DNA from: Paramecium tetraurelia
Taxonomy: Eukaryota; Ciliophora; Oligohymenophorea; Peniculida; Parameciidae
Assembly: GCF_000165425.1 (NCBI RefSeq)
Contig: NW_001799533.1
Span: 228,376-292,375, forward strand
Direction: 5' to 3'
Length of the DNA: 64,000 bases
The position numbers and the translations under genes were made by a program. The notes under the pieces are model-generated. The model was not told the origin of the DNA. It worked only from the letters and a program-made list of their open reading frames with translations, and searched no databases. Shown one piece after another: positions 56,968 to 64,000 of this stretch. Numbering within the stretch: position 1 is the stretch's first letter; the number at the start of each line of letters is the position of its first letter.

Positions 56968-59900
56968 TCAAATGTATCTTTGTTATTAAGGGTTTTATTA
57001 TATTTCATACTCTCTCTATAGAGATTTCATTTTTTATTTTAGATTTTAAGATGAAATTGCAGCTTAACTTAAAGTCTTTTTGAAATTTTCAGACTCTTGT
57101 TTTAATCTTTCCCATCCAGAAGACTAATCTAATTAACTGTTATCCTTGATTCCACTTTATTAGGATTATTACGAGACATAGGACGATTCATTTTTGTAAT
57201 CTAAATTAATAAATTATATTTATACTTTAACTATATTTTTAAGGTTAATAGGCCTTTTCCAATTCTTATAAAAGCTATTCATTTTGATCTTTTAATTGTT
57301 GGATTTCTTATAATGTATTCATCTACATTTATCTTTCTTAAATGATAACTTGCTCCATCTCATTTACTCTCTTTTACTCCCAAGATAATTAAGCATCTTT
57401 TAAGTCGACTTATTTTTGTAGGTCTCTATTAGCATTATCAATGTATTATTTTTCCCTTTCTAACTAGGCAATTTGTCTATTAAAGTCTTCCTGGGCAGCT
57501 TAAAACCCTGTAGAAATCTTTCTTTATGAGTGATACTCTTTTCCTAATTGCTAAATAATAAAAAATTTATGATTACATCTCTTTCTTTAAGTAGTTCTCT
57601 AATTTATCTTTCATATTCTTCAGACTTTCTATTCAATCTTTCAATTTCACGCTCATATTATTGTAATTAGATTTAATATTGATCTTCTCTTTTTGATGCA
57701 TTTTGCATTTAAACTTTAAAGAAGTCTTCTTATTTTTCTAATTCTACTCCTCGTTGTAACACATCCTCATGTTGCAATGATATCTATTAAATTGAAACTG
57801 TTAGTCTTTGATTTTCTGCACAAACTTCACTATAATTAAGCTACAAATCATGCATTTCCATATCAAACATTTTAATTTGTTCTTTAAGTCTAATTTCTTA
57901 TTACTATAAAAATTGGATTTGCTATTATTATAATTCTTTCTCTTATACAGATTTGACAAGTTAATTATTTAAAGATTGGTTATCTTTACTTAATATTTAA
58001 ATATCAGATTTCATCTCATGGAATTCTTTCTCTTTGATTTGTAGAGTGTATTTTAGATTATCATTTTCATTCTAGAGCTTTTAATTCTTATAAATTTAAT
58101 CTCTTAATTTCTCCTCCAATTATTAGGCAGCTTCATAACCTCGTTCTCCTTTTGTGCTAACTTCTGATAATTTTGATTGCTATTTCGACATTTCAGCATT
58201 CATTTGCTTAATCTATTATTACAATGAGATGTTGGTTTCCCGAACTTCATCTAATTAATTTTAGACTTCATCTCTTTCAAGATCTAATTACTCTAAGGAT
58301 CGTTTTAATATGACATTCTGTTCAGATAATTAATGAACTCTATCGTCTAAATTTTCGTTCAATTCCCTTAATTATAATACTTATCTTTCATCCTCTATCT
58401 TTGTGCTATTCTTTTATTATAATCTTTGTAATAATTCTTCTTTTTATTTTTCCAAACTTTCACACAATAATTTTAGTTATCGAATTTAGTTATCCTAGTC
58501 AGTTTTTTATAATTTAAGAGAAGATACTTAGGATTATGATTCAGTTAATTCATTATACAGTTTATTAGATCTTTGAACCTCCTTTTACAATTATTCATTA
58601 ATATCTTATAAAGTCATTTCGTAATTATTTACTTTTTCTGACAATTTTATAGAAGTGTTTTTGATTTCATGATCATTTGTTTTCAATCCATTAATCATTT
58701 ATCTTAATTCTCTTGCTTCTTTCATCGCTTCTTCTTTTAATTTATTTAAAAATTCCATTTATTTAGTTTATTGACTGATTACTGATTCTAATCTTATATT
58801 TTCACTCTAAAATCTCTCTTTTTCAATTAACATCTTTCTTTCTTAGTCTCTTAATCTTTCTATTTCATTTGTCAAATTATAGTAGTCCATCTCTTTATCC
58901 TTGTTTCTTAATAAGTTTTATTAGTATTTAAAGGTTTCATCACTTTATTATCGTAAATTCATTTGCAATTTATCATTCTCCAATCTTTATTCATTAAGCA
59001 ATTCTTAAGCTATTTTAAGCTTCTCTTCTAATTGAGAGTTAAATATCCCTAAATCTGATATTTATAATTTTAGAGAATTATTCTATTATTAAAGTAATTT
59101 TAATTCTCCAACTGTATCATTTTCAATCTTTTACTTTTATTCTATTACACTTTATTAATTCAATCGCATCTTTGATTACTCTCTTTTGAATGATTCAACC
59201 TCTTATTCTAATGATGCTATATCCTATAGCTTTAATTTAATTTATGAATCCAAGTTAGCATTCTTCTGTGCTAATTCATTTATTTGATCATTCAATGCGC
59301 GTTTCTGTTATTTTAATTCATAATTATCTCTATCCTTCTCTCCTAATTCTTTTTTAATTGATTTTAGTAGATTTTCTGTTGTTTGCACTTCTTTAGTCAA
59401 TAGATCATTTTCCTTTCTTAATTAATCTATTATAAGTTGTTGACCTTAGTTAGGATTTTATTAATGGGACTACTAATTTTTTTGTTCCTATTTAAATTTT
59501 TATAATAAACTATCTAAGTTTTATTTAGAAACATCCATTCTTTCAAATTCTATTTTCAATTCTCTGATTGTTTATTTTTCTTGATCCAATTCCCTTTCCA
59601 AATCTCTCTTATCTTGTCTTAATTATTATACAAATTCTTTCTCTCTTTCATACTCATCATTTAATTTCTTATAATTTCTATCATATAATTCCTTTTCTCT
59701 TTATAATTATTAATATTCTGACTTTTGAATTTATAGCTAATCATCCATATCATTTAACTAATATTTTAATTTTTCATTTTCTTCTTCTAAATTTTTTAAA
59801 GACTACACAGTATTTTCTTTATCATTCTTCAAATTATTTACAGCTTTACTGAATACCATCTTATCAGTTTAATATGCTTATACCACTTATTCAGCATTTT

Positions 59901-60958
59901 GAGCCTTAAATTATAGTTATTCATTTTATTGATATAATTACTAAACCTTCTCAACTAATTGTTAATTTTCCTATTCTAATTAATTTAATATTTTTTTGAA
60001 TTATTCTTGATTCTTTTCCTTCTCTTCCTCAATGACAGATAATCTTTATTTGATCTAATTTAATTCATTTTTTTTATCTGATTTATTTGGACTTTATTAT
60101 TATGGTTGACTAGGCTTTTTCCTAAAACGGGATAATTCTTTTCTTAAATTTGATAATTCATCATTTAACTTTGTATTTTCTTCAGTTAACAAATCTACTT
60201 GTGTTTATGTTCTTTAAGCCTTTTATTGTGTCTCTGAGAGAAGATGTTCTTATGCTAATTTCTCGATATTCGTGCCTTAAATATCTAATTTTGATTTTAA
60301 TCTCAAAATCTCCTTTTCTCTATTTTCAATCTAAAATTCTAAATGCTTGCATTTTTCTTCCAATAATACTTTAGAATTGTCATTCTCTCTAGAATCCTAT
60401 TGTACTTATATTAATCTAGAAATGATAATCATAATTAAGGTACTTCTTCTCTAGATCTTATATTTAGTCAATCAATTTTAATGTTTTATCTGGTTAATTA
60501 CTTGAAGATAAATAATTTTCATTATTTTTTTTAAATAATTCTTCTTGTAATTTCTTTTCAGCATTATTTTTTTAACCTAATATAAATTTCCAATCATTTC
60601 TCTCACTTTCTAACATTCTTACTTGTGATCTCCATTTATTTTCTTTGGTATCACATTCTTCCTTAATTTGAATCATTGTCATGTGTAATTAATTATTTTC
60701 ATTAACAATCCTTTAATTCTCCTTTTTCAAAGGTAACAATAATTGTTCAAACTTAGCTGCATTTATTTTAGTCTATTTCATATATCATCAATATACTTCT
60801 TCCAATTATTTTTTTAATTATTGAAAACCCTCAGTAGTTTTAACTAAATCATTTAGTAATCTCTCTACTAAAGGAACAGAGTCTATTCCTAAGGGTTAAC
60901 AATAATGCAAGGCATCCAATCTCTTCTTTAGCAATAAAAACTTCCTCTCTTGATCCAT
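56968..60958 (-). CDS. CEP135: CEP135/Bld10 centriole cartwheel protein
   Basis: ATG 60958 (MDQERKFLLLKKRLDALHYC) to TGA 56970-56968, about 1,300 aa with a few short introns. The N-terminus carries the CEP135/Bld10 signature: KKRLDALHYCQPLGIDSVPL followed by VERLLNDLVKTTEG, equivalent to the human RKRLDQLGY...LPLVEKLFSDLVHTTES segment. The remainder is continuous coiled coil with Gln-rich heptads encoded partly by TAA/TAG, for example LEEENEKLKYQLNDMDDQLQ, LERDEVQNQLDEVRETNISL and LRKENDLLTKEVQT. Bld10/CEP135 links the cartwheel spoke tips to triplet microtubules and is required for basal body assembly; in Paramecium and Tetrahymena it localises to basal bodies. The size is slightly above the human protein. 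Its stop lies 52 bp from the uL4m stop. Confidence 0.9.
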
Positions 60959-61396
60959 ATTTGAAAAAATTATATATATGTTAATTAATAAAAAAAAGAA
61001 TTTTGAAATTATGAATTTTGTAAACAGTTAATAAATTATTTATTATTATTTACATATTTCTTTATTTAATATTAATATCTTTTAAGCTAACTTTCTTCTT
61101 ACCCTTTGTATAAATAAATGCATTTATTGATAATAATCTGATAATTGATTAAAATACAATAATTGTTGCTCATTTTCCTTTCTGCTCCACTATTATTCTC
61201 ATTCTTTATCATTTTTCAATTAGCTACCTATTTTTTAAATCTTTTTGAATTAATAAATTTCTAGTAACAAAATACATTATTAGAATATCATTATTATTGT
61301 GGATACTCCTATAATCTATTTAGTAGTTAAAGTTTATTTATTGTTTATTTCAAATTACAGGCTTAAGTTGTTTAATTTTATATTAAAAGTTGATTT
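60959..61396. other. AT-rich divergent intergenic region
   Basis: About 440 bp between the CEP135 start (minus) and the P4-ATPase-like start (plus). Homopolymeric A/T; no coding signal. It should contain both promoters. Confidence 0.55.
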
Positions 61397-63720
61397 ATGC
61401 TGTATAGGATTATTGAAAAGGTCTATAAATAAATTCCATTGAAGTATCAACAGAGACTAAAAGATATAGAATTTGAAAACTTATAGAGCATGAGAGTATC
61501 AAATAATCATATATTAGATTGAATTTACTAATGGTCTAGTGCAAAAAACATACAATTACGAGATTTTGTCAAACAAAATACAATTAATCCAAGTATGATT
61601 AGTTTTATCTAGGCATCTACAGTAATCAAAGAATTAGTTAGAATTTTGCTCAAAATGGAAACTCTCCCTATTTTTCCTTTAATTTATTTTCTTTCTTTAC
61701 AAGAATTATTCTGGTCTGAATTCTTTATTATATTATACACGATGATGTGTTTAATTATGGATATGGCTTTCTCATACTTAATACTATTTTCCAATTTAAA
61801 ATAAAGATGGAAATTTGAAGAGAATATCAATAAACAGTAATGTCGAGTCTTAGCAGATATAGATTAATTGTTGTAAACTTAAAATAAAACTCCTTCAAAG
61901 AAAATCGAATGGTAGCAATTAAAATTAGGTCAAATCGTTTGTCTTTAGAAGGGAGAAAAGAGTCCAGCAGATGTCTTAATTTTAGAATCAAGTTAGGAAT
62001 AAGTATTAGTGGATTTTAAGTATAAATATCCTTGCCCTTGCACTTTTGTTAATTAAGCTTCTAAAACAAAAGGAATCATGACTAAATTCTTAATAAATTT
62101 GAGTGGATGGATCTAATTTTAAAGCTCTAAACAAGGAACTATTAAATTGAAAAACGATCCAAAGACCACTTAATTTACAGATGTAAATATTATTAACAGA
62201 GGCCAAATATTGAATCAAACAGATTGGATATTTGGGATAGCCATATAGGTTGGACACGGATGCTTTTAATAAAGAGATCGATATTATAATTGGAACCATT
62301 ATAATTAGAATAGTTTTTATATATTTTTGATAGATGTTATAATTTTCTTTGTCCTTTTAATACCAAAGCTAATTAGTTAACAATAGTATGAATTCCCAAC
62401 TTATCAAAATTCTATTATAATGTGTCTGTTACTTTTACCTTAAAATTACTTTATCATCAATTAAATATGGTTACTTATTCACTAATTCAATCTAAACAAA
62501 TTAGAGATTAGATAATCTTCTGACACAAATTCCAATTTAACCTAATAATAGCAATAATAACTTTAAGAGTAACCTGATCCAATCCTGTAAGAATATGATA
62601 AGAAAGTGCTTATTTAAGTGTAAAAAGTAGGATCAACAAACAATTCAGTATTGAATCTTGGTTTAAAAAAGAAAAATCCAACTTAATGCAATATATATCA
62701 ATATAATCAATTATCTAATTAAAACATTTTAGAATTGATGAAAACAGATGTATTAGTATTTGAGAATCCTTAAAAAATATTAAAAGATAATGTTAGAGTT
62801 TGCTTAATCATACATGACAAATGTAGATATTACTTTAATTATGAAAAATTATAATCCATTATTGAAAAAACTACTCCAACTCAAAAAATTAATTATGAAA
62901 AATTACTATTAGATACAAATAGGTTTTAAGCTTATGATGAATAAAAAACATAAGACATTGATTTATTACTTGCTGAAAAGTAATAGCCAACCTTAAGGAT
63001 TGTCGAAGAAAAAAAAACATTCCAAAAAATAGGGTTTTTGAAAGAATAAACAAAGGTAAGTTAATTTCAAAAAGATATGAGAGATTCTAAAGACCTAAAA
63101 AAGTAACCTGGAGACCCTTAAAAATTGAATACATATAGTTCTTTTAGAAAATAAACTGCAAGGAACTTATTTCAATCTAATACTTAAGTCTAACAAATAA
63201 AAGAGTCTAATTAACAATCGACATTAATACAACAATAATAATCTAACATAATAATTTCATATAAGAATTCGCCGAAATTGTAAAGATAAAGAAGTAGTAA
63301 TCATCTTTCCTAAAGTCAATTGAATCCAAATGTCAGATCTTAGGGAGGATCATTAAAAAACATTACTCCGACTTAATAAGATTTGAGTAATGATTAAATC
63401 ATAGGAGATGTATTTAATGAATAAGATTTTATTAATAAATTATTGAATAAGTCTGATGTAATATCGAATGAAATTTTAATTGTTTTACTGCTTTGTAATA
63501 ATATTGAGAGTGTTTATGATAAGAAAGAAAAGAAGATTTAAAATATATATTATAATTCATTTGATGAATCAATTTTAGAATTTGTGAAGATATTTGATTA
63601 TAAATTTATTTCAAGTGCTACAATTGATAATTTTCAAGTAGAATATAAATAAGATCAAAATAGTCCAAAAGGCTGTCTCTATTTTAAGGAGTTATTAAGA
63701 TTTTTGATATTATAGCCTTT
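61397..63720 (+). CDS. P4-ATPase-like protein lacking the catalytic motifs (3' end lost)
   Basis: ATG 61397 (MLYRIIEKVYKQIPLKY). Introns of 22 nt (about 61494-61515) and 20 nt (about 61596-61615) give TNGLVQKTYNYEILSNKIQL, then membrane pairs (METLPIFPLIYFLSLQELF, FFIILYTMMCLIMDMAFSYL), INKQQCRVLADI, and the flippase actuator pattern WQQLKLGQIVCLQKGEKSPA followed by DVLILESS. NRGQILNQTDWIFGIAIQVG and a second hydrophobic pair follow. Where P4-ATPases have DGET the sequence is unrelated, and where they have DKTGT it reads TDVLVFENPQKILKDN (Glu at 62762-62764). So the fold is a lipid-flippase relative but autophosphorylation and ATP-driven transport look impossible. A long Gln/Lys/Ser-rich insertion follows. 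The frame continues to about 63710, then the sequence is unreliable. Confidence 0.7.
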
Positions 63721-64000
63721 TTGTTGCCAACCCCAAAATCGATAAAATACTCTCTCTATACCTGGTTAAGAATCTGAAACCTTTGTATTATAAGGAAGGA
63801 GCTTTTTTATTCCCCAGAACAGAAATATGGTGACACGAATTATATGGCCAAAGATTCCCCTTAATTAATGAAAAAAAGGGGGAAAAGGTTTTGGGGGGGG
63901 GTTAAAGCTCAATAAAATCTTAAAAAAAAAATTGGATTTCTAGTAAAACTCAAAGTTTTTTAATAAATTAAAATTCCCCTCCCCCAAGACCTAGGGTGAA
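63720..64000. other. low-quality-looking right end
   Basis: The last ~280 bp contain a G10 run, other G, A and C homopolymers and C-rich strings (cccctccccc) unlike anything else here except 1465-1495. Frames of the P4-like gene break down with closely spaced TGAs. This looks like poor contig-end sequence; no telomeric C4A2/C3A3 repeat is seen. Confidence 0.55.

Follow-up and report, generated by a model that had tools for sequence, protein, structure and literature searches.

A probable P4-ATPase-guanylyl cyclase fusion gene of Paramecium tetraurelia whose P4 domain lacks the phosphorylation motif

The DNA analysed here, referred to as the window, is a stretch of 64,000 nucleotides that corresponds to positions 228376-292375 of contig C192 in a 69-Mb, 231-contig genome. 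Close to its right end lies a gene on the forward strand, with a putative start codon near 61397, two short introns and then one long exon (Table 1). Translated with the ciliate code, in which TAA and TAG specify Gln, the first two exons and the sequence from 61613 onward give a single unbroken protein. Such a code fits Paramecium, as do introns 20-30 nt long that begin with GTA and end in TAG. The third exon encodes TM1-2, an actuator-like domain, TM3-4, the site of a lost phosphorylation motif, a Q-rich linker and the start of the N-domain. The neighbouring gene, at 57319-60471 on the minus strand, is an open frame of 1050 codons that is rich in Gln, Glu and Lys and has the look of a long coiled-coil protein. 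Scans of the window for tRNAs and Rfam families gave no matches.

Table 1. Features of the gene at the right end of the window (window coordinates).
Feature	Position	Strand	Evidence
Exon 1, putative start codon	61397..61495	+	ciliate-code translation; matching exon and intron in L011 and L012
Intron 1, 22 nt, GTATC...TTAG	61496..61517	+	same place in L011 (22 nt) and L012 (22 nt)
Exon 2, IEFTNGL...NKIQLIQ, P4 N-terminal motif region	61518..61592	+	75-nt exon also in L011
Intron 2, 20 nt, GTATG...CTAG	61593..61612	+	same place in L011 (20 nt)
Exon 3, reliable part	61613..63656	+	TGA-free; 81% identity to L011 over 734 aa
Actuator (A) domain-like region	61901..62278	+	conservation, profile and family comparison
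Place of the DGET loop, now SSQEQVLVDFKYKYPCPCTFV	61988..62053	+	paralogue alignment
PQNY in TM4, where P4-ATPases have PISL	62438..62449	+	alignment
VFENPQK replacing (F)DKTGT	62756..62776	+	paralogue alignment; profile alignment to yeast DNF1
Frameshifted, poor-looking end beside the 4087-N run	63657..64000	+	collinear L011 alignment with several indels

There is no TGA in the 683 codons of 61613-63663, an outcome with a chance of about 3e-6 by base composition, and the other two frames over the same interval contain 16 and 25 TGA codons. Both introns occupy positions shared with the paralogue L011, with diverged sequences, and the position of the first is also kept in L012. The preliminary description of this locus was thus right to report a frame that stays intact for over 2 kb with short introns and is not in simple decay. 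Its end of the gene, at 63720, was wrong: the gene continues into a run of 4087 N, which occupies 64001-68087 (window coordinates continued) and begins exactly where the window ends. Just before this run there are odd runs of C and G and indels with respect to L011, in sequence that is still collinear with it. Since the indels shift the frame against L011 from about 63657, the last residues given in the preliminary description are unreliable. The interval 63657-64000 resembles a poor contig end, and motifs called in it are probably not to be trusted.

Past the N run, on the same strand, there is a Guanylate_cyc domain (PF00211, E 4e-43) at C192:296944-297525. The piece that carries it has an open frame, with hydrophobic segments before the domain, and reads FADIAGF and YTIGDCYVC. 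The same genes are nearest on both flanks of the gap, namely: L011 (C134), with 81% identity over 734 aa before it and 88% over 345 aa after it, and then L012 (C155), with 70% before and 81% after; 19 relatives were matched before the N run and 20 after. Measured between matching points on either side, the spacing is 4120 bp in the window gene vs. 3893 bp in L011. L011 is free of gaps, and its 2482-aa gene model is a fusion of a P4-ATPase-like region to a guanylyl cyclase, with VFENPQK and two PF00211 stretches (total E 6e-90). In the window gene, one cyclase domain is readable past the gap; C1 would fall inside the N run, which takes up the central ~4.1 kb, and for TGD, GDGxND and the C1 motifs the paralogues serve as the guide. 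Since both flanks are nearest to the fused L011 and a cyclase lies beyond the gap, what can be read in the window is very probably the N-terminal half of a fused P4-ATPase and guanylyl cyclase of the alveolate type, with a dead P4 domain.

When the first 361 residues of the window protein were searched in the genome, every one of the 31 matching rows fell in a cyclase locus. Manual comparison of positions shows that 29 of them begin upstream of the first PF00211 match, on its strand and at a distance of 3.9-4.9 kb; the remaining two are the window gene itself, with its cyclase domain beyond the gap. No stand-alone P4-ATPase is found among these 31 rows. The preliminary description had suggested that a dead flippase could act as a regulator, sensor or partner of active flippases. 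Its motif is lost with the frame intact, and separate flippases exist as possible targets, given that 30 of the 35 PF16209 matches in the genome lie away from the cyclase loci and five inside them. A stand-alone pseudo-flippase of this kind is nevertheless scarcely credible and was rejected on genome context, i.e. the confinement of the matching rows to cyclase loci and the continuation of the contig into a cyclase domain of the same subfamily. Since all the matching rows are in cyclase loci, the idea of a regulator finds no support in trans and applies in cis, to the protein's own cyclase.

Taken alone, the window protein is a weak P4 match, with PF00122 at E 0.0067 (under the Pfam curated cut-off) and DRS2 at E 0.002; residues 1-1281 of L011 match DNF2 and DNF1 at E ~1.6e-7. 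A family profile built from seven members, three of which retain DKTGT, was compared with solved structures. The first 20 of its 61 matches are P4-ATPases, the best being yeast DNF1 (E 1.8e-26), with chain 6k7g at E 6.4e-26, and P2-type pumps come after them at E 3e-6 or worse. The P4-ATPase-like layout noted earlier is therefore real, although weak in the single protein. With the P4 flippases (DNF1, DRS2, ATP8A1, ATP8B1), which are the best matches of the family profile, the window protein shares the domain layout of the N-terminal half; it differs from them in lacking DKTGT, DGET and PISL and in having paralogues fused to a cyclase. Single-sequence structure prediction of 61613-62830 was uninformative (mean pLDDT 38.3, pTM 0.24).

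The loss of the phosphorylation motif is confirmed by the paralogue alignment, in which VFENPQK stands in the column of FDKTGT, and the profile alignment puts the DKTG of DNF1 on the same column. None of DKTG, DGET, KGAD, TGDK/N, GDGxND and TGES occurs in the six frames of 61300-64000, which rules out a missed intron or an alternative frame concealing DKTGT there, and DKT[GC]T is absent from the three coding-strand frames of L011-L017 and L026. The absence of DGET, also reported in the preliminary description, holds as well but is not distinctive. This motif is altered in all 11 modelled DKTGT/DKTCT paralogues (as DGQT, RGQT, DGKS, SGNT, TGNT, NGET or NGQT), so that its absence alone is nothing special and the loss of DKTGT is the telling difference. 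In the window gene and its closest relatives, a shorter stretch stands in for the DGET loop and contains PC[PS]CT in six of the seven genes and ACSCT in L016. The P4 PISL motif at TM4 is described in section 10 of PMC7858053, and besides PQNY in the window gene, the alignment contains departures from it in other paralogues. The functions of the P-type motifs are set out in the same section. By established P-type biochemistry, no aspartyl phosphate can form without the Asp of DKTGT, and without it there is no flippase cycle; the P4 domain of the window gene would thus form no aspartyl phosphate and hence pump no lipid.

For a census of the family, 35 cyclase loci were grouped by hand from 105 PF00211 matches, each with a pair of cyclase domains, one strong domain on its own (C166) or the domain of the window gene; seven weak lone PF00211 matches (C229, C10, C96, C44 and distant sites on C162, C114 and C196) were set aside. 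The lone cyclase domain at C166:426986-427516 has one TGA inside and may contain an intron or be a broken family member. It stands outside the 34 loci scored for the motif, of which 15 have DKTGT, two have DKTCT (C67, C218) and 17 lack DKT[GC]T. It should be noted that 13 of the DKTGT calls come from fetched DNA and those on C9 and C187 from pattern search only, among the matches listed, and that for eight of the 17 loci without the motif the score is based on fragments of 1.4-1.9 kb. The motif-lacking loci comprise the seven of the window clade (C192, C134, C155, C109, C65, C108 and C2), two LELNQQ genes at second loci on C65 and C109, six genes on C221, C193, C196, C24, C37 and C202, and two more on C114 and C162. 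The DKTCT loci, L019 and L021, keep the Asp and have Cys for Gly, with a mutual dN/dS of 0.05 in ATPase-N.

All seven members of the window clade lack KTGT and have NP[QK] at the site. The change from the catalytic Asp to Glu, as described before, is present in the window gene but not fixed in the clade, where the column holds E in four members, D in two (L013 and L016) and N in one, with NP after it in all seven. In L013 and L016 the site reads DNPQ/DNPK; with the Asp kept and KTGT gone, these two would be expected to form no aspartyl phosphate either. GDGxND decays in step: it is GDGYND in L023-L025, GDSFND/GDSFSD/GDExND/GDDNND in the other DKTGT/DKTCT models, and nothing like it is found in L011-L017 and L026. 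In L011-L016, TGDK/N and GDGxND are both absent from the coding-strand frames.

The history of the dead state was followed on two trees. The tree of the ATPase half has 32 rows, with L041 and L043 left out and the flippase L042 as the outgroup, counted as 'alive'; it drew long-branch warnings, and part of the trait itself is among its columns. The tree of the cyclase C2 domain has 24 rows, namely 19 of the 20 full loci (without L023), L005-L008 and the window piece, with L007 cut at a frame break. The window gene groups with L011 and L012 (100/100 in the ATPase tree, 99/95 in the cyclase tree), L013-L016 join next (98/98 and 98/93), and then L017 and L026 (99/98 and 95/93). The dead state is thus common to a supported clade of seven genes, the window gene and its close paralogues. 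Relatives with an intact DKTGT, which the preliminary description had named as counter-evidence, are found among the more distant paralogues and not in the near clade. By parsimony, the dead label requires two changes on both trees. In an AU test of a single dead clade, made on the cyclase tree only, one origin was not rejected (p 0.41).

The dead domains are not drifting. Over 741 codons, dN/dS between the window gene and L011 is 0.126 by NG86, 0.109 by YN00, 0.097 by maximum likelihood and 0.211 by LWL85. Up to the lost motif it is 0.101 (dN 0.081, dS 0.80), and in the linker and the start of the N-domain 0.177. With L012, dS is saturated or extreme by NG86 and maximum likelihood, and LWL85 alone gives a finite dN/dS (0.178), so only the L011 pair was used for the window gene. 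In the ATPase-N region, the dead pairs L011/L012, L013/L014 and L015/L016 give 0.061, 0.075 and 0.088, values that are rough because dS is 3.3, 1.7 and 3.1. Among the DKTGT/DKTCT pairs, L027/L029 gives 0.069 and L019/L021 gives 0.051, with L018/L020 and L028/L030 saturated. The L024/L025 and L026/L017 pairs gave no value because landmarks are lacking. The deeper pair L011/L015, with near-saturated dS, has 0.244 in ATPase-N, against 0.161 for C1 and 0.148 for C2. The dead P4 domains are under purifying selection, far from neutral.

Whether this selection is weaker than in the other pairs depends on the yardstick. The ratio of ATPase-N dN to C1 dN is 4.6, 6.7 and 5.5 in the dead pairs and 2.8, 3.2, 4.3 and 3.9 in the other four, a slight sign of relaxed selection in the dead pairs. 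When C2 dN serves as the yardstick instead, this sign is gone (6.2 and 3.1 vs. 4.2, 3.3, 8.1 and 5.0); the C2 value of L013/L014 (0.216) is unusable here, the gene model of L013 being poor.

These data also bear on the alternative that the window gene is a decaying copy, i.e. a pseudogene of a recent duplicate with a real break near 63657. The several indels against L011 in 63657-64000 are what such a copy could show. They occur, however, solely in the ~340 bp that adjoin the N run, among odd runs of C and G as in a poor contig end; the preceding 2 kb has a dN/dS of about 0.10, and beyond the gap the frame is open and agrees with L011 at 98% of 199 C2-domain columns. Decay is accordingly highly improbable.

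The cyclase half keeps its motifs where they could be read. All six of L011-L016 have QKIETVG and SRVCST in C1 and both FADI and GDC in C2. The residues for a guanine-type purine are the Glu and Cys in C1, and the metal Asps are those in C2. The C2 metal residues of the window gene are present in FADIAGF and YTIGDCYVC; its C1 would lie in the N run.

Conservation within the clade is uneven along the ATPase half. Against a mean of 0.45, the 20-residue blocks of the A-domain region between residues 161 and 280 score 0.57-0.73, the block KLLLDTNRFQAYDEQKTQDIDLLLAEKQ after the lost motif (window 62900-62983) scores 0.71-0.77 and is among the most conserved of the clade, and residues 661-680 score 0.72. 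The block of VFENPQK itself is about average (0.49), with only NP invariant, and TM1-2 is low (0.24-0.28 in blocks 81-120).

A dead P4 domain that is still preserved by selection is probably a scaffold or sensor for the cyclase, and this is the reading towards which we lean on balance. The domain would be embedded in the membrane and act in cis on its own cyclase: the conformation of the A-domain and linker, which might itself depend on bound lipid, an accessory subunit, Ca2+/calmodulin or the membrane potential, would position and gate the two cyclase domains that lie C-terminal to the P4 domain, and cGMP would be made at the membrane without an ATPase cycle. Another possibility is that the domain works by an unorthodox route, e.g. 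as an ATP-independent scramblase or as a lipid receptor with the cyclase as output. It has in its favour that the actuator region is conserved in the clade and that selection persists, but PQNY in place of PISL at TM4 and the poor conservation of TM1-2 make it improbable.

A stronger contender, though still rather unlikely, is that the domain is kept for trafficking and folding only, anchoring the protein in the membrane, perhaps together with a CDC50 subunit, and having no sensing role. The genome has 24 PF03381 (CDC50-family) matches, and in Toxoplasma, CDC50.1 and UGO are required for assembly of the GC (PMC6532924). Binding of CDC50 by the clade is, however, hypothetical, and its best conserved parts, namely the A domain and the KLLLDTNRFQAYDEQKTQDIDLLLAEKQ block, are predicted to be cytoplasmic and would be needless for a mere anchor.

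The abstract on a ciliate cyclase cloned in 1999 reportedly describes signature motifs as conserved in both domains; in the window clade, by contrast, those of the ATPase are lost. According to papers that cite this work (Linder 1999, EMBO J 18:4222), the cloned cyclase has a P4-ATPase-like N-terminus, membrane spans and two cyclase domains with C1 and C2 inverted, an architecture that the window gene very probably shares; the inversion of the C1/C2 roles is stated in a passage of PMC5746546. Fusions of a P4-ATPase to a guanylyl cyclase are known from Paramecium, Tetrahymena and Apicomplexa (PMC6592433 and PMC5746546, in part). The accessible portion of PMC9608856 deals with one membrane GC of P. 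tetraurelia and its duplicate, together with many other related sequences, and contains no motif analysis.

Among the Apicomplexa, a parallel is Plasmodium falciparum GCbeta, whose ATPase domain is described as degenerated in a section of PMC6592433 and whose catalytic domain was active when expressed, according to a passage of PMC5746546. The window clade is a GCbeta-like situation in a ciliate, although GCbeta belongs to another phylum and to a separate group in the tree of PMC6592433, as far as that section goes. Toxoplasma TgATPaseP-GC and Plasmodium GCalpha are the same fusion and are membrane cyclases of cGMP signalling, but they keep DKTGT (same section), which the window clade lacks. 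In GCalpha, the Asp-to-Asn change was unobtainable in three transfections, and the authors place its ATPase domain upstream of cGMP synthesis (PMC7858053, section 10), which is in keeping with a P4 domain that governs its cyclase; for the Toxoplasma GC, a table of the review PMC6532924 lists ATPase activity as essential for survival. Since the catalytic Asp or ATPase activity is reported to be essential in these two, a working cyclase without it is not a given.

What looks new is the scale of the P4 loss and the contrast with Plasmodium GCalpha and the Toxoplasma GC, a degenerate P4 domain being already known in GCbeta. Among the matches listed from the open-licence literature, no title or abstract opening describes loss of P4 motifs across the Paramecium GC family, which is weak evidence of absence.

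The linkage of a flippase to a guanylyl cyclase in alveolates is called intriguing in part of the 2017 review PMC5746546, with no activity then shown for the ATPase domain. Since the ATPase is apparently necessary in malaria and Toxoplasma, transport is hard to separate from allostery there. One free-living genome with 17 paralogues keeping the motif and 17 lacking it is a natural separation-of-function series, and Paramecium is amenable to RNAi silencing. We tentatively suggest that roughly half the members of this large family of ciliate guanylyl cyclases may have dropped the flippase cycle, on which Plasmodium GCalpha and the Toxoplasma GC depend, and kept the P4 fold under selection. In that case the P4 domain could be a receptor or an allosteric module that from the outset has served, and still serves, to gate the cyclase, flipping being dispensable.

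At the other end of the family are L023, L024 and L025 (C216, C215 and C22), which have the most intact P4 motifs among the cyclase genes (DKTGT and GDGYND). In these genes it is C1 that is altered, with FAYI for FCDI and RVGST for RVCST, roughly a mirror image of the window clade.
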